This document shows positions 2,739-16,908 of a stretch of 39,961 nt of DNA, in pieces; the stretch's first letter is position 1; the number at the start of each line of letters is the position of its first letter. This DNA is from Oscillospiraceae bacterium (GTDB lineage: Bacteria; Bacillota; Clostridia; UBA1381; UMGS1253). A program made the position numbers and the translations under genes. The stretch spans positions 1-39,961 of the forward strand of contig SVKA01000016.1 of the NCBI GenBank assembly GCA_015068725.1. Direction: 5' to 3'. The notes under the pieces were generated by a model. That model worked only from the letters and a program-made list of their open reading frames with translations, had not been told where the DNA came from and searched no databases.

Positions 2739-4733
2739 ATGCAAAGAATTGGTGTTTTTGTATGTTGGTGTGGCAGTAATATCGCAGGCTCTGTTGATGT
2801 CGAAGCGGTATCGCAGGCCTTGAAAAACGAACCTGGAGTCGTCTTTTCCACCAATTATCAATATATGTGTTCTCAGGCAGGTCAGGATATGATTGTAAAT
2901 GCAGTCAAAGAGCATAAGCTTACAGGTATTGTTGTTTGCTCTTGCTCGCCACGCATGCACGAAGCGACTTTCAGAAAAACGGCTGCAGCTGCAGGCTTAA
3001 ATCCTTATATGGTTGAAATTGCCAACATAAGAGAACAGTGTTCATGGGTTCACAAGGATATTGCTACCGGAACGCAGAAAGCAATCATTCTTGGTAAGGC
3101 GGCTATTGCAAAGGTTAACCTTAACGCTCCGCTTACACCGGGCGAATCGCCCGTTACCAAGAGAGCACTTGTTATCGGCGGTGGTATTGCAGGCATTCAG
3201 ACAGCACTTGATATTGCTGATGCAGGTTTTCCCGTTGATATAGTTGAAAAAAATCCTACAATCGGCGGAAAAATGGCGCAGCTTGATAAGACGTTCCCTA
3301 CCCTTGACTGTGCGGCATGTATTTTGACGCCAAAAATGGTGGACGTCGCACAAAACGAAAATATCCGTATTTTCTCATATAGCGAAGTATCAGAAATAAA
3401 GGGCTTTGTGGGCAATTTTGATGTTACTATCAAGAAAAATGCCCGCTATGTCAAAGAAGATGTATGCACTGGCTGTGGTGCTTGTGTTGAAAAGTGCCCG
3501 ATGAAGAAAGTACCTAATGAGTTCAATCTCGGAATGGATAATCGCAGTGCGATTTATATCCCGTTTGCACAGGCAGTTCCAAAGGTTGCAACAATCGACC
3601 CTAATGCTTGTAATATGCTTAAAAACGGCAAATGCGGTCTTTGTGCAAAGGTTTGCGCAGCAGGTGCGATTGATTACACGCAAAAAGATGAATATATCAA
3701 CGAAAAATATGGTGCGATTGTTGTTGCGACCGGATTTAATCCTATCAGCATGGACAAGTTCGACGAATTTGCCTACAATCAGTCAAAGGACGTTATCACA
3801 TCACTTGAGTTTGAACGTCTTACAAATGCGGCAGGTCCTACTGCCGGCCATCTTGAAAGACCTTCGGACGGAAAATCACCAAAAACTATTGTTTTTGTTC
3901 AGTGTGTTGGTTCAAGATGTGATGCGTGCAATGAAAAAGGCAAAGAATATTGTTCAAAAATTTGTTGTATGTATACAGCCAAGCATGCAATGCTTGTAAG
4001 AGATAAATACCCTGATACAGATGTATATGTATTCTATATAGACGTAAGAACTCCCGGCAAGAATTTTGATGAATTTTACCGCAGAGCAGTTGAAGAATAC
4101 GGCGTAAAATATATTAAGGGTATGGTGGGAAAAGTTACTCCCGAGGGAGATAAACTAAAAGTTCAGGCATCAGACCTTATTGATAACAAACAGCTTCATA
4201 TTGATGCTGACTTAGTAGTTTTAGCAGCTGCTATCGAGCCTGATAAATCAGCAAGACCTCTTGCAACTATGCTTACGGCAAGTATGGATACAAATGACTT
4301 CTTCACTGAAGCTCATCCAAAGCTTCGTCCTGTAGAAAGCCCGACTGCCGGCGTATTCTTGTCAGGTGCTTGTCAGGGTCCAAAAGATATTCCTGAAACA
4401 GTTTCTCAGGCAGGTGCGGCGGCTTCTAAGGTTATCGGACTTCTTGCCAAAGATAAATTGACAGGTAACCCGTGTGTTGCTCATTCAAATGAGCTTATGT
4501 GTAACGGATGTTCTTCTTGTGAAAGAGTTTGTCCGTATGGCGCTATCACTTATGAAGACAGAGAATTCCGCATGCCTGACAGAACAACCAAGATAAGACG
4601 AATTGCAATTGTTAACCCCGCAGTTTGTCAGGGTTGTGGTGCATGTACAGTTGCATGTCCGTCAGGAGCTATGGACTTAAACGGATTTGCAAGTAATCAA
4701 ATTATGGCGGAGGTGGACGCAATATGCAAGTAA
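2739..4733 (+). CDS. hdrA: HdrA-like FAD/iron-sulfur bifurcating subunit
   Basis: 664 residues, full-length HdrA. The N-terminal cysteine region (C9, C11, C44, C67, C69) is followed by an FAD Rossmann motif GGGIAG at 147-152 and the conserved CAAC at 191-194. Ferredoxin-type clusters come next (C243/C246/C249/C253, then C291/C299/C302/C306), and two more cubane motifs lie in the last 80 residues. In methanogens HdrA is the flavin-bifurcating centre, splitting an electron pair between ferredoxin and HdrBC. The same role is inferred here with NADH (via the Flx subunits) as donor. AGGAGG precedes the ATG; the stop overlaps the next gene by 10 nt. Confidence 0.93.
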   Translation: MQRIGVFVCWCGSNIAGSVDVEAVSQALKNEPGVVFSTNYQYMCSQAGQDMIVNAVKEHKLTGIVVCSCSPRMHEATFRKTAAAAGLNPYMVEIANIREQCSWVHKDIATGTQKAIILGKAAIAKVNLNAPLTPGESPVTKRALVIGGGIAGIQTALDIADAGFPVDIVEKNPTIGGKMAQLDKTFPTLDCAACILTPKMVDVAQNENIRIFSYSEVSEIKGFVGNFDVTIKKNARYVKEDVCTGCGACVEKCPMKKVPNEFNLGMDNRSAIYIPFAQAVPKVATIDPNACNMLKNGKCGLCAKVCAAGAIDYTQKDEYINEKYGAIVVATGFNPISMDKFDEFAYNQSKDVITSLEFERLTNAAGPTAGHLERPSDGKSPKTIVFVQCVGSRCDACNEKGKEYCSKICCMYTAKHAMLVRDKYPDTDVYVFYIDVRTPGKNFDEFYRRAVEEYGVKYIKGMVGKVTPEGDKLKVQASDLIDNKQLHIDADLVVLAAAIEPDKSARPLATMLTASMDTNDFFTEAHPKLRPVESPTAGVFLSGACQGPKDIPETVSQAGAAASKVIGLLAKDKLTGNPCVAHSNELMCNGCSSCERVCPYGAITYEDREFRMPDRTTKIRRIAIVNPAVCQGCGACTVACPSGAMDLNGFASNQIMAEVDAICK

Positions 4734-13628: not shown

Positions 13629-14162
13629 TTAAAACTTAACTACCTTTGAAAGTCTGGGATATAAATACTTGCACACAGGTATGAGCACAACCACTTTTAC
13701 AGCCGCCTCTATAAGCGATGCGGTAAGCTTTGCTGTAAAAATTACGCTAAACGCTTTTACCATTCCCGTTACATACTTATGATAAATATAAAGCCACAGC
13801 GGTGTAAGCGGCACAGCGACGAATACAAGCTGAATCATCACGCATACAACTACGCGCCACACGCCTATATCCTTTTTATAAAACATCCACGCAAAAATGA
13901 GCGCATACAGCACTGCATTTATGGAAAACATCGGATTGTACGCTCCCGTGCCTGCAATCATTGTCCCTACAAAATCGGATACAAGCGCTATAAACACCGC
14001 CCACGAAGGTCCAAGCATCATCGCTGCAATTGCAATCGGAACAAAGCCAAGACTGATTTGAAAAATATCTGTCTGTATTCCAAGATAGCGTGATAAAATG
14101 ATTTGCAGTGCTACAAGTATTGCACCAAACGCAAGCTTTCGTACCATATTAGTTTTGGACAT
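13629..14162 (-). CDS. folT: ECF folate transporter S component
   Basis: 177 residues, about six membrane segments, small and lacking an ATPase domain: the S-component layout of ECF vitamin transporters. The interior MLGPSWAVFIALVSDFVG and GAYNPMFSINA segments are typical of FolT. It binds folate and needs the shared EcfAA'T module, which is not in this window. The start is ATG 14162, with GGGAGG 8 nt upstream; the longer TTG start at 14177 would include this site. The THF riboswitch directly upstream and folC downstream support folate specificity strongly. Confidence 0.93.
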   Translation of the reverse strand: MSKTNMVRKLAFGAILVALQIILSRYLGIQTDIFQISLGFVPIAIAAMMLGPSWAVFIALVSDFVGTMIAGTGAYNPMFSINAVLYALIFAWMFYKKDIGVWRVVVCVMIQLVFVAVPLTPLWLYIYHKYVTGMVKAFSVIFTAKLTASLIEAAVKVVVLIPVCKYLYPRLSKVVKF

Positions 14163-14166
14163 AAAA

Positions 14167-14220
14167 ACACCTCCCAAATATTAGCGTAACAACTCGCTAC
14201 ATATCAGGAGGTCATCTCCT
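14167..14220 (-). promoter_or_regulatory. expression platform: alternative pairing that can mask the folT ribosome site
   Basis: Downstream of the aptamer, ACCTCCT (forward 14206-14212) can pair either with the preceding AGGAG (14216-14220) or with the folT ribosome site GGGAGGT (14169-14175). The two pairings exclude each other, which fits translational control by THF. Which state binds ligand is not determined. Confidence 0.6.
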
Positions 14221-14224
14221 ATTA

Positions 14225-14320
14225 TAGCAGCGGGATGCGAGCCTTTAACCGCAACAAAATGTTTTCGTCCCACAGGCAACTCCCCGTCCCGAAGGCACTT
14301 AACGCTAAAAGCTCTACTCT
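14225..14320 (-). promoter_or_regulatory. tetrahydrofolate (THF) riboswitch
   Basis: Read on the - strand, the leader has the conserved THF aptamer elements in order: AGAGTAG (P1), GCGTTAAGTGC, GGGACGGGGAGTTGCC, GGACGAAA, GCGGTTAAAGG and GCATCCCGCTGCT closing P1 (AGTAG with CTGCT). It sits about 60 nt upstream of the folT start, the classical location. Recognition is by consensus elements and context; no covariance-model score was run. Confidence 0.92.
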
Positions 14321-14338
14321 GTATTTTGTACTCTTAAT

Positions 14339-14422: not shown

Positions 14423-14499
14423 GCGCCTGTAGCTCAGTTGGATAGAGTTTCAGACTCCGACTCTGAAGGTCGTGCGTTCGAATCGCATCAGGCGTACCA
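14423..14499 (+). tRNA. tRNA-Arg (anticodon CCG)
   Basis: 77-nt cloverleaf. Acceptor GCGCCTG pairs with CAGGCGT (first pair G-U), the D arm is AGCTCAGTTGG, and the anticodon stem TCAGA/TCTGA encloses CTCCGAC (anticodon CCG, codon CGG). The T arm has TTCGAAT, and CCA is encoded at 14497-14499. It stands alone rather than in a tRNA cluster and directly precedes the small-RNA array. Confidence 0.97.
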
Positions 14500-14537: not shown

Positions 14538-14591
14538 AGTTAAATCCATAATGATTGACATCACAAAAAATTTATGCTACACTTATTTTAG

Positions 14592-14653
14592 AGTTGACGG
14601 TTAGTGAGCGAGTCCCTCCCGTTTGGGCTGAGGACACGTCGCCCTCGTCAACT
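14592..14653 (+). ncRNA. array unit A, putative 62-nt structured RNA
   Basis: Promoter TTGACA 14555-14560, 17 nt, TACACT 14578-14583. Closing stem AGTTGACG (14592-14599) / CGTCAACT (14646-14653), then T-run to 14658. An inner helix GTCC 14612-14615 / GGAC 14632-14635 is visible. It begins right after the tRNA terminator, so it has independent transcription. Confidence 0.55.
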
Positions 14654-14700
14654 TTTTTATATGCGTTGACTTTTTGTGATAATTATAGTATAATAATTGC

Positions 14701-14772
14701 AGAACCAATGTCTGCTGGCGATGCGACTAAACCGTTATTGGTTGTCTCTACCGCCGTTTCAGCATTGGTTCT
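14701..14772 (+). ncRNA. array unit B, putative 72-nt structured RNA
   Basis: Promoter TTGACT 14666-14671, 17 nt, TATAAT 14689-14694. Closing stem AGAACCAATG (14701-14710) / CATTGGTTCT (14763-14772), 10 bp perfect. Inner GGCG/CGCC helix and a GAC..AACC / GGTTGTC helix. Paralogous to units I and K. There is no T-run at its end; unit C follows immediately, so B and C may be one transcript. Confidence 0.55.
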
Positions 14773-14836
14773 AGATGGTGTTTCCCCAAGCGGACTTTTA
14801 TCAGTCTCTGACTTGGACTTGAAAGAAACACCATCT
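14773..14836 (+). ncRNA. array unit C, stem-closed domain fused behind B
   Basis: Closing stem AGATGGTGTTTC (14773-14784) / GAAACACCATCT (14825-14836), 12 bp perfect, starting on the base after unit B ends. It has no promoter of its own, so it is probably the 3' domain of the B transcript. Confidence 0.5.
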
Positions 14837-14848
14837 TATATTGATTTT

Positions 14849-15739
14849 TCACAACAAATATGTTATGCTAACAACAACAGACGATGAGACAAGGGGCGTT
14901 TCGGACGTGAGCTGTGGGTTGATTTTATCAACATTCGGCACTTGGCTACCAACGTCTGTCTTTTTATTGACATTTATTATATTTTGTGGTATATTGAGGT
15001 CAGAGGTTGATTCTTTTTTTATATCTGAAACAGCATTTTTGCTGCGAGGTAGGTATGAATCAACCTCTAAATTTATGTCATAAAACACTTCGCCAAAATT
15101 TGCTTTTCCAAGCCTCACGATATATTTAAAAATAACATTATCAATACGAACTCTGCCATTATAATTTCTGAAGCCATTTTCTTTGAAAAGCTTATGGTTT
15201 TTCACATCAGGCGAATCCCAATGAGCGACAGAATTGTCTATTAAATCCTGTATACTTGGCGCAAGTCTCATTTTTTGATTAAATCTTTTATCATCTTCCG
15301 AAAAACTTTTAAACAGCAATTGGCTTTCGTCGCTACGGGTAAATTCTTCAGCACTCAAACGTATAAATTGTATTTCTTTACCATCCACAACATCAGTAAT
15401 CGTTTCTTTATTATCTCTTTTTCCAATGATATAATCATAGGCTCTTTGTTGCATAGTCCAAGGATTAGTTATGTTTTTAAAAACATCCTTTTCCGTTTCA
15501 ATGTGCCAGTATTGTTTGCCAAACTTACCCGTCTTAAGCATCATATGCGATTTGCTATCCACACTCTGTTCCCTACTCTTCCTCAATGCCCTCTCATACA
15601 ATCTCGCCGCCTTCTGAAGCTGCGCATCGCTAAGTCCGGACACGTTCAAGCCATTGACATTCGAACGATTTTGTGGTATATTGTTCTTGGAAGTTCCACC
15701 CTCCGACAAACCTTTTTGTTTGCCCGGCCTTTGAGCCAC
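14849..15739 (-). CDS. phage-like polyvalent-protein domain ORF, probably a remnant
   Basis: An open frame of 296 codons. The central part, about 15070-15650, looks genuinely coding: a helical segment (DAQLQKAARLYERAL), then a mixed domain with HIETEKD, RLSAEEFTRS, APSIQDLIDNS, HKLFKENGF and FYDINLEV. This resembles C-terminal domains of large polyvalent proteins in Firmicute phages and integrative elements (possibly the LPD3 type; uncertain). Both ends run antisense through array promoters and give a low-complexity NIPQ..NVN peptide. The GTG start lies inside unit F with no ribosome site. I infer a decayed phage gene fragment caught in the array. Confidence 0.45.
   Translation of the reverse strand: MAQRPGKQKGLSEGGTSKNNIPQNRSNVNGLNVSGLSDAQLQKAARLYERALRKSREQSVDSKSHMMLKTGKFGKQYWHIETEKDVFKNITNPWTMQQRAYDYIIGKRDNKETITDVVDGKEIQFIRLSAEEFTRSDESQLLFKSFSEDDKRFNQKMRLAPSIQDLIDNSVAHWDSPDVKNHKLFKENGFRNYNGRVRIDNVIFKYIVRLGKANFGEVFYDINLEVDSYLPRSKNAVSDIKKESTSDLNIPQNIINVNKKTDVGSQVPNVDKINPQLTSETPLVSSSVVVSITYLL
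14877..14959 (+). ncRNA. array unit D, putative 83-nt structured RNA
   Basis: Promoter TTGATT 14841-14846, 17 nt, TATGCT 14864-14869. Closing stem ACAGACG (14877-14883) / CGTCTGT (14953-14959), then CTTTTT. Inner hairpins: GCGT..ACGT (14896-14908, with the GGACGT motif shared with G, H, M) and GTTGAT/ATCAAC (14918-14932). Confidence 0.55.
15002..15068 (+). ncRNA. array unit E, putative 67-nt structured RNA
   Basis: Promoter TTGACA 14967-14972, 17 nt, TATATT 14990-14995. Closing stem AGAGGTTGATTC (15002-15013) / GAATCAACCTCT (15057-15068), 12 bp perfect. Inner CAGC/GCTG hairpin. No T-run follows; the antisense coding remnant begins at this boundary. Confidence 0.5.
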
Positions 15740-15756
15740 TTGAGGGAGCGGAGCTT
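15691..15756 (+). ncRNA. array unit F, putative 66-nt structured RNA
   Basis: Promoter TTGACA 15654-15659, 17 nt, TATATT 15677-15682. Closing stem AAGTTCC (15691-15697) / GGAGCTT (15750-15756, one G-U), then CTTTTATTT. It has a clear multibranch fold: CCCTC/GAGGG encloses CAAAC/GTTTG and GGC/GCC hairpins. Confidence 0.55.
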
Positions 15757-15799
15757 CTTTTATTTGACTTTTTAACTCAACTCTGCTAAACTTATGTTA

Positions 15800-15873
15800 A
15801 AAGCAGATACGTTTGTTGCGTTTTCGGACGTTTCTTGGGGGCCACCAGCATCCGAGGGCAAACGGTCTGCTTT
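15800..15873 (+). ncRNA. array unit G, putative 74-nt structured RNA
   Basis: Promoter TTGACT 15764-15769, 17 nt, TAAACT 15787-15792. Closing stem AAAGCAGA (15800-15807) / TCTGCTTT (15866-15873), then T-run to 15876. A second collinear stem is CGTTTG 15810-15815 / CAAACG 15859-15864. Inner hairpins: GCGT..ACGT and CTTGG/CCGAG. Confidence 0.6.
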
Positions 15874-15918
15874 TTTATTCATTTGACAGACTGCTCAGGC
15901 TGTGGTATAGTAGTGGTA

Positions 15919-15991
15919 GGAACATTATTCGGGACGTCTTGGACGTACATCCGGGGGATGCCTGCATCATCTGGATATGAATCAATGTTCC
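15919..15991 (+). ncRNA. array unit H, putative 73-nt structured RNA
   Basis: Promoter TTGACA 15883-15888, 17 nt, TATAGT 15906-15911. Closing stem GGAACATT (15919-15926) / AATGTTCC (15984-15991), extended by ATTC/GAAT, then ATTTTTT. Inner hairpins: ACGT 15934-15937 / ACGT 15943-15946, and ATCCG/TGGAT enclosing GATG/CATC. Its promoter is a near-identical copy of that of unit N. Confidence 0.6.
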
Positions 15992-16037
15992 ATTTTTTAT
16001 TTGACAAAATATCCAGATTGTAATATAATAGTGGTGG

Positions 16038-16105
16038 AACCAATGTCTGCTGGCGATGCGACTACACCCTTATCAGTTGTAGCTGCCGCCCTTTCAGCAT
16101 TGGTT
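16038..16105 (+). ncRNA. array unit I, putative 68-nt structured RNA
   Basis: Promoter TTGACA 16001-16006, 17 nt, TATAAT 16024-16029. Closing stem AACCAATG (16038-16045) / CATTGGTT (16098-16105), running into T5. Inner helix GGCG 16052-16055 / CGCC 16087-16090, then CTACA/TGTAG. Paralog of B and K; compensatory change relative to K. Confidence 0.6.
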
Positions 16106-16156
16106 TTTGTTGCTTCCATTGACAAGCCAATAAAACTGTGGTATATTAGTACCGAA

Positions 16157-16222
16157 AGAAGCTTTTCGTTTTTTTTGAGCGCCTCCCTTCGGGGAGGAAG
16201 AGCCCGTACTCGGAAAGCTTCT
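16157..16222 (+). ncRNA. array unit J, putative 66-nt structured RNA
   Basis: Promoter TTGACA 16119-16124, 17 nt, TATATT 16142-16147. Closing stem AGAAGCTTTTCG (16157-16168) / CGGAAAGCTTCT (16211-16222), 12 bp with one G-U, then TTTG. Inner hairpin CCTCCC-TTCG-GGGAGG carries a stable tetraloop. Confidence 0.6.
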
Positions 16223-16393
16223 TTTGTTTATTTGTAATACTCCTCAACCTATCAACACAGTCATTGTAAATAAGACGCCCCTTCTGTAACGTTACGTTAA
16301 GTGTCGGTAATGGTTGTGGCTGTATATTGTTTTGCGCGATTGGTAATGGTTGCGGGTTGACAGATTGTTCCTGTTGTGGTATAGTAGTGGTAG

Positions 16394-16461
16394 AACCAAT
16401 GTCTGTTGTCGATGCGACTGCACTGTTATCAGTTGTAGCTGCCGACGTTTCAGCATTGGTT
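16394..16461 (+). ncRNA. array unit K, putative 68-nt structured RNA
   Basis: Promoter TTGACA 16357-16362, 17 nt, TATAGT 16380-16385. Closing stem AACCAATG (16394-16401) / CATTGGTT (16454-16461), into T4. Inner helix GTCG 16408-16411 / CGAC 16443-16446. Paralog of I and B. Confidence 0.6.
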
Positions 16462-16508
16462 TTGTTGCTTCCATTGACAAGCCAATAAAACTGTGGTATA
16501 TTGTTCTT

Positions 16509-16578
16509 GGATGTAGAATTTAGCGTGGGAGAAGCGGTGCTTTTGCCGTCAGGCACCCTGGTCGCATTTTCTGCATCC
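16509..16578 (+). ncRNA. array unit L, putative 70-nt structured RNA
   Basis: Promoter TTGACA 16474-16479, 17 nt, TATATT 16497-16502. Closing stem GGATGTAGAA (16509-16518) / TTCTGCATCC (16569-16578), 10 bp with one G-U. Inner GGTGC/GCACC hairpin. No T-run; a further structured stretch (16579-16655, CTTCC/GGAAG enclosing CGGAC/GTCCG, ending CTCCTTTTT) follows and may be the 3' domain of the same transcript. Confidence 0.5.
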
Positions 16579-16691
16579 TTGTATGGGGTCTTTGGTAGCT
16601 TCCATCCCGGACAATTGTAGTCCGTCGACAGGAAGATTCTGAAGGCTCCTTTTTATTGACGTTTGTTGTAATTTGTGGTATAGTAGTGGTG

Positions 16692-16780
16692 GAAGAAGAT
16701 TTAGTGGACGGGGCGTTATTGGACGTTGTTGGCATGGCTTCATTATTTGTTGCAGTTGCTACTCGAGGACTATCTTCTTC
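16692..16780 (+). ncRNA. array unit M, putative 89-nt structured RNA
   Basis: Promoter TTGACG 16656-16661, 17 nt, TATAGT 16679-16684. Closing stem GAAGAAGA (16692-16699) / TCTTCTTC (16773-16780), extended by TAGT/ACTA, then T6. Inner GCGT 16713-16716 / ACGT 16723-16726 hairpin with the GGACGT motif. Confidence 0.55.
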
Positions 16781-16829
16781 TTTTTTATTCATTTGACAGA
16801 CTGCTCAGGTTGTGGTATAGTAGTGGTAG

Positions 16830-16896
16830 GACTTGAACTGCTTTCAGGGGCGGTGGATACGGATTCCACGTCGGTCGAGTTAGCAGGTATCAAGTC
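16830..16896 (+). ncRNA. array unit N, putative 67-nt structured RNA
   Basis: Promoter TTGACA 16793-16798, 17 nt, TATAGT 16816-16821. Closing stem GACTTGA (16830-16836) / TCAAGTC (16890-16896). Inner CTGC/GCAG and GGCG..TGG / CCACGTC helices. It is the last unit; its T-run is weak (CATTTCATTT). Confidence 0.5.
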
Positions 16897-16908
16897 CATT
16901 TCATTTAC

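Follow-up and report, generated by a model that had tools for sequence, protein, structure and literature searches.

What do the short, promoter-led and stem-closed segments encode that crowd the plus strand of a 39,961-nucleotide contig of an Oscillospiraceae bacterium (SVKA01000016.1, positions 1 to 39,961, hereafter the window), and what would such RNAs serve? Sequence comparison indicates that these units are small structured RNA genes of a widespread kind, predicted to have a σA promoter and to be mostly self-terminating. Their usual home is the antisense strand of polyvalent genes of phages and related elements, directly behind an LPD3, PBECR3 or MuF_C domain. The array in the window is best described as an orphan RNA bank in the debris of a polyvalent protein.

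An array of RNA units in the window

On the plus strand at 14555-16897, 13 σA-type promoters and 14 stem-closed, mostly self-terminating RNA units were identified, one more unit than the minimum of 13 given by the initial annotation. The units and the minus-strand remnant are listed below; RNA classes were assigned by eye, and the unit scanner was tuned on these same data.

U1: 14555..14655 (+), promoter 14555-14583, RNA 14590-14655, class IV
U2: 14666..14772 (+), promoter 14666-14694, RNA 14701-14772, class B, folding z -5.5
U3: 14773..14836 (+), RNA directly after U2, without a promoter of its own, class A
U4: 14841..14958 (+), weak promoter 14841-14869 (by eye), RNA 14878-14958, class I, subtype D
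U5: 14967..15068 (+), promoter 14967-14995, RNA 15002-15068, class C
U6: 15654..15758 (+), promoter 15654-15682, RNA 15689-15758, folding z -2.3
U7: 15764..15874 (+), promoter 15764-15792 (by eye), RNA 15799-15874, class I core, folding z -3.7
U8: 15883..15991 (+), promoter 15883-15911, RNA 15919-15991, class I
U9: 16001..16107 (+), promoter 16001-16029 (perfect consensus), RNA 16036-16107, class B
U10: 16119..16226 (+), promoter 16119-16147, RNA 16153-16226, folding z -3.0
U11: 16357..16463 (+), promoter 16357-16385, RNA 16392-16463, class B, folding z -5.5
U12: 16474..16578 (+), promoter 16474-16502, RNA 16509-16578, no clear T-run, folding z -3.3
U13: 16656..16781 (+), promoter 16656-16684, RNA 16691-16781, class I, subtype d
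U14: 16793..16897 (+), promoter 16793-16821, RNA 16829-16897, folding z -4.2
Remnant: 14849..15739 (-), broken polyvalent-protein remnant with an LPD3 domain (about 15080-15436), frames broken around LPD3

Eleven promoters of the array had no more than two mismatches to TTGACA-17-TATAAT (14555, 14666, 14967, 15654, 15883, 16001, 16119, 16357, 16474, 16656 and 16793), and two weaker ones were read by eye (14841, TTGATT-17-TATGCT; 15764, TTGACT-17-TAAACT). The invariant 17-nt spacer reported earlier was recovered in 13/13, and most promoters carried an extended -10 element (TGTGG). On the plus strand outside the array (about 37.5 kb), a 17-nt spacer was present in 6 of 25 promoter-like sites. 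The minus strand of the array region contained no promoter of the same quality, compared with 28 minus-strand sites in the window as a whole. A CRISPR-like or guide-RNA array was considered and rejected, as a constant repeat with variable spacers and one leader promoter would be expected, whereas here each unit has its promoter and the stems differ.

In most units, the 5' arm of the closing stem begins 5-8 nt past the -10 box, that is, at or near +1; therefore, the RNA is predicted to be closed by a stem that doubles as its terminator. A T-run follows the 3' arm in most units, as the initial annotation had described, but is weak or missing after U2, U5 and U12. The units are short as proposed, although the RNA length is 64-91 nt rather than 62-89 nt. 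All 14 folded more stably than their shuffled counterparts (z between -1.7 and -5.9 with a mean of -3.7; 200 dinucleotide shuffles per unit), which together with the promoters agrees with promoter-driven structured RNAs. The closing stems vary and keep their pairing by compensatory changes; the units are not all different, however, as U2, U9 and U11 are mutual copies (78-83% identical). Similarly, the promoters do lie within the 2.35 kb described, but the packing is not continuous, because a disrupted LPD3-coding segment on the minus strand (about 15.08-15.65 kb) divides the array in two; U5 lies antisense over the end of this LPD3 remnant.

The LPD3 score of the remnant is borderline (25.9 versus the 27-bit Pfam cut-off) and reached 27.3 bits in a second profile search. 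This domain places a polyvalent-type domain in the minus-strand frame, and the recurring linker of the remnant, NIPQ-x5-VN, is the antisense of the array promoters.

Relatives in polyvalent genes and selection on the RNA

When related genomes were searched by similarity and GTDB contigs were scanned with a pattern, the same RNAs were found in other Clostridia, including arrays homologous to the one in the window (L and G numbers denote loci and genomes of the comparison set). The named records from the pattern scan were mostly metagenome-assembled genomes of the ruminant gut. The relatives occur in three settings, as solitary intergenic copies (L002, L003 and L008), as further dense arrays (L012, L045 and L009) and as antisense copies within long open reading frames (ORFs; L004/L049, L048, L046 and L086). 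Those long ORFs that Pfam recognised are polyvalent proteins with ART-PolyVal, LPD23, LPD3, PBECR3, LPD38 and SNF2 domains. The RNAs stand without the protein in the window, in L012, L045, L009, L160 and L162, and in a five-unit bank of Escherichia coli.

Relatives of U1 (class IV) were found in G337, G109, G323 and G227, with eight compensatory pairs; the class is considered rare because its covariance model matched 5/391 genomes. For U2 (class B), a relative (L006) lies antisense within a polyvalent-like ORF of G011. U3 (class A), with five compensatory pairs, has relatives in L009-L014, and the class lies behind LPD3 in G022 and G276. In addition, relatives were found for U4 (L012 and L045), U5 (class C; L003) and U13 (L156 in G008), and none for U6, U10, U12 and U14. 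Scans of viral sequences gave no match for class A, and for class B they hit structural genes that are unrelated. Promoter-pattern scans without RNA constraint were too unspecific, although the first one still led to the L045-L048 arrays.

The orientation within ORFs was evaluated at LPD3 loci, which had been selected regardless of RNA by a Pfam LPD3 search of 245 genomes of the class (16 matched). All of the scanned units there were antisense (14/14; two loci overlap, so that a few units are counted twice). Across 17 polyvalent ORFs, 15 antisense units were observed versus a mean of 0.04 in synonymous codon shuffles, and this shuffling ruled out the units as a codon by-product of the IPQ-x5-VN or TISDLxxLVK peptides. 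Around other strong promoters, the unit scanner found none in 86 kb.

Moreover, in a related gene pair, codons under the units were identical in 26/26 cases versus 100/164 in the flanks (p=8.6e-6). A second pair gave 19/20 versus 49/99 (p=7e-5), and two more showed synonymous constraint under the units (p=0.0045 and 0.0023); more distant pairs were mostly uninformative. In the overlapping proteins, the class I core appears in either of two frames, giving TSET/TPET in one and VRN/ARD/VQN in the other; therefore, the nucleotide motif, not a peptide, is conserved. Compensatory double changes were present in 42 of 268 consensus pairs from 12 subclasses, with few sequences behind these counts, and were counted within subclasses because MAFFT failed to align class I at full length. 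Taken together, these comparisons indicate that selection acts on the nucleotide sequence of the units itself. The initial annotation had described promoter-driven RNA units and had named a translated antisense protein as a finding that would overturn them. The units of the window do form an orphan bank now, but by origin they are not independent and belong antisense behind LPD3, PBECR3 or MuF_C; the antisense protein is half true by ancestry, while the RNA stands by the synonymous constraint and the two reading frames.

These results bear on two other explanations. Selfish palindromic elements of the Rickettsia type, or recombination sites for domain shuffling without RNA function, would account for sites both in ORFs and between genes, for the local duplicates U2, U9 and U11, and for the solitary copies L002, L008 and L003. 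However, promoter and fold are conserved as a unit, the overlapping codons are constrained, the loop motifs are conserved, and the sites are confined behind particular domains rather than scattered; selfish palindromic DNA is unlikely, and we consider this whole explanation highly improbable. Alternatively, the RNAs may be cis-encoded antisense regulators that lower translation or stability of the polyvalent mRNA, as in type I systems, RNA-OUT and Sar, with orphan banks silencing incoming polyvalent genes by base pairing. In favour of such regulation, the units are strictly antisense and perfectly complementary to the mRNA that they overlap. Nevertheless, it seems rather unlikely, since the class I core and fold persist over unrelated linkers, in two frames and in orphan copies. 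The terminator, too, forces the units to be antisense, because on the sense strand it would cut the mRNA short.

Several settings deserve mention. The array of the window is present once in its genome, and the Asp23 loci of one same-genus genome and two family members contained no array; therefore, it was regarded as accessory DNA between a tRNA-Arg gene and the Asp23 gene. This tRNA-Arg (CCG; 14423-14499, plus strand), about 55 nt ahead of the array, is a possible old integration site; a prophage attachment site was considered there and rejected, as no convincing direct repeat was found. A tetrahydrofolate riboswitch (83.9 bits; 14226-14323, minus strand) lies upstream of the S-component gene of an energy-coupling factor transporter (13629-14177, minus strand). 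Elsewhere, at a chromosomal site in G323, an integrase-like gene (L048, 6146-7201, minus strand) adjoins a polyvalent gene of 1928 aa that stands alone, and the two genes are perhaps a minimal integrating element. An ArsC/Spx-like gene (L045, 8154-8507) lies midway in the RNA array of G337. In G101:C1, four near-identical extended -10 promoters (TTGACATTACAAAAAAWTTGTGGTATAAT) are scattered in one genome, perhaps as a mobile element.

RNA class, neighbouring domain and possible function

The class of the RNA follows the class of the neighbouring domain, as judged from the loci compared. A P2 hairpin (RCGUY-UYG-GRCGU) is common to the class I RNAs, usually with a P3 stem bearing a GGG/AUC internal loop, and these RNAs are located immediately behind PBECR3. 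In PBECR3 loci retrieved by hidden Markov model or protein search in genomes and viral contigs, the strict class I core was antisense just behind the domain in 10/14 polyvalent or viral loci versus 0/26 solo or short genes (Fisher p ~1e-6, calculated by hand; one counted locus, L170, is a 223-aa ORF). A matching promoter accompanied 9 of the 10 positive loci, and near-matches in three further loci were read by eye. A promoter followed by a class I core gave 17 matches in 14/291 genomes, compared with 2 for the reversed control; some of these lie within ORFs of 549-1021 aa, and in others the antisense frame is broken by stop codons. Two tandem class I cores in different frames were observed behind one PBECR3 in L174 and L175 (about 3490-3650).

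Class VI is characterised by an inner hairpin, GGGC-AAUUGGA-GCCC, and by its position behind MuF_C, seen in Clostridia. In viral contigs, its core was found at 38 loci; at 36 of these it lies antisense within an ORF (339-3199 aa), read as '...GLQLP' and mostly after a visible MuF_C tail; many of these are near-identical prophages, and the search pattern itself favours conserved codons. The combination of MuF_C and class VI RNA was also present in Sepvirinae phages of E. coli. GLQLP is encoded as GGG CTC CAA TTG CCC in 3/4 E. coli records (one of them sharing 43% protein identity with the query) and as GGG CTT CAA TTG CCC in the fourth. Behind LPD3, the RNAs were of classes A, II, V, VII and others, and no class I core was seen there in the loci examined.

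Furthermore, a tandem of five class VI units occurs in lambdoid prophages of 116/5,426 complete E. coli genomes (~2%). No polyvalent gene covers the units; the closing stems differ among the five, which share one promoter-like sequence and one terminator. Judged by its layout, this bank is the orphan arrangement again, in a model organism. An example is located as follows.

L220, 2497-2882: five-unit bank of E. coli SCU-106, between perC-family genes

The bank lies partly under an annotated 'hypothetical protein' on the opposite strand. Separately, GTTCACC-type repeats upstream of ssb in an E. coli prophage (L222, 819-949) gave spurious Rfam microRNA matches.

The tie between RNA class and domain, the nucleotide-level selection and the retention of RNAs without the protein led us to infer, tentatively and at slightly less than even confidence, that each RNA is a trans-acting cognate partner of the neighbouring domain, most likely an inhibitor in the manner of a type III RNA antitoxin. 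The RNA would bind the neighbouring domain in trans and inhibit it, which would shield the element's own host, and orphan banks, constitutively transcribed, would neutralise the domains that incoming elements bring with them. PBECR domains, MuF-C among them, have been predicted to be RNases of the BECR fold (PMC5512222). The broader proposal, of a new RNA-protein conflict module in which an antisense RNA behind each RNase-type domain neutralises or guides that domain and orphan banks act as immunity in Clostridia and E. coli, is possible but held with somewhat less confidence.

Several points weigh against a cognate partner. The pairing of domain and RNA could reflect no more than their joint inheritance on one DNA module. 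Foldseek searches with AlphaFold2 (AF2) models of PBECR3 and LPD3 gave no significant PDB match and so did not confirm the folds; RNase status is at most putative for LPD3, and a BECR fold is not claimed for it. In addition, the window keeps only LPD3, not PBECR3 or MuF_C, and the solo PBECR3 genes carry no such RNA (0/26), so those domains must be managed otherwise.

The retention of RNAs without the protein also fits a different target, namely the host. The RNAs may act in trans as decoys, sponges or anti-defence factors, made at entry by the host RNA polymerase, and would ride on the polyvalent gene only as the element's conflict toolkit. Strong host-type promoters and conserved folds with variable stems are consistent with this, and prophage small RNAs that sponge host small RNAs are known (AgvB and AsxR; PMC4104026). 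We nevertheless find a host target doubtful, as one RNA class per domain class would be left unexplained.

Should the cognate-partner reading hold, the two strands of a single DNA segment would encode, across phyla, a conflict domain and the RNA partner of that domain. This pairing of RNA and protein would be of a new kind in phage conflicts; it could explain how these domains are carried safely and would predict partners for many uncharacterised domains. The orphan banks would then be a layer of phage immunity already present in ~2% of the complete E. coli genomes examined.

Comparison with known families and systems

Rfam searches at lax thresholds (E up to 5 or 1) gave no credible match for the units, in agreement with the initial annotation, which had named no family with this layout, and no description of such RNAs was found in the open-access literature. 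The analysis adds a large set of structured RNAs absent from family listings. The LPD3, PBECR and MuF_C domains were described in the polyvalent-protein study of Iyer et al. (2017), which does not mention antisense or noncoding RNA (PMC5512222); the same genes host the RNAs.

Like AgvB, AsxR and 24B_1, the class VI units are small prophage RNAs of E. coli. Identity with these was ruled out by genomic position, as AgvB/AsxR (51-60 nt) occupy the moron site near stx2 and 24B_1 lies between lom and vb_24B_43. The units also resemble Rickettsia palindromic elements in being palindromes both within ORFs and between genes. Those elements, however, are scattered over unrelated genes without RNA constraint, whereas the units have promoter and terminator, conserved inner motifs and a fixed position behind certain domains.

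Type I and cis-antisense RNAs such as Sar and RNA-OUT are similar in length, in having their own promoter and terminator and in being antisense to a gene. The copies within ORFs are antisense to their gene, and the orphan copies have no overlapping gene. In contrast to the small hydrophobic toxins of type I systems, the genes here are large polyvalent ORFs. The units lie behind particular domains of these, are also kept without the gene, and conserve their fold over unrelated genes and frames.

Type III toxin-antitoxin systems (ToxIN and CptIN) differ in that their RNA repeats, of listed families, lie upstream of the toxin on the same strand. In the present loci, a PBECR3, MuF_C or LPD3 domain within a polyvalent protein is followed by an antisense RNA, usually a single unit under its own promoter. 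Type III systems nevertheless share with the present RNAs the link between a small structured RNA and a predicted endoribonuclease, and the tandem RNA units, seen here in the E. coli bank.

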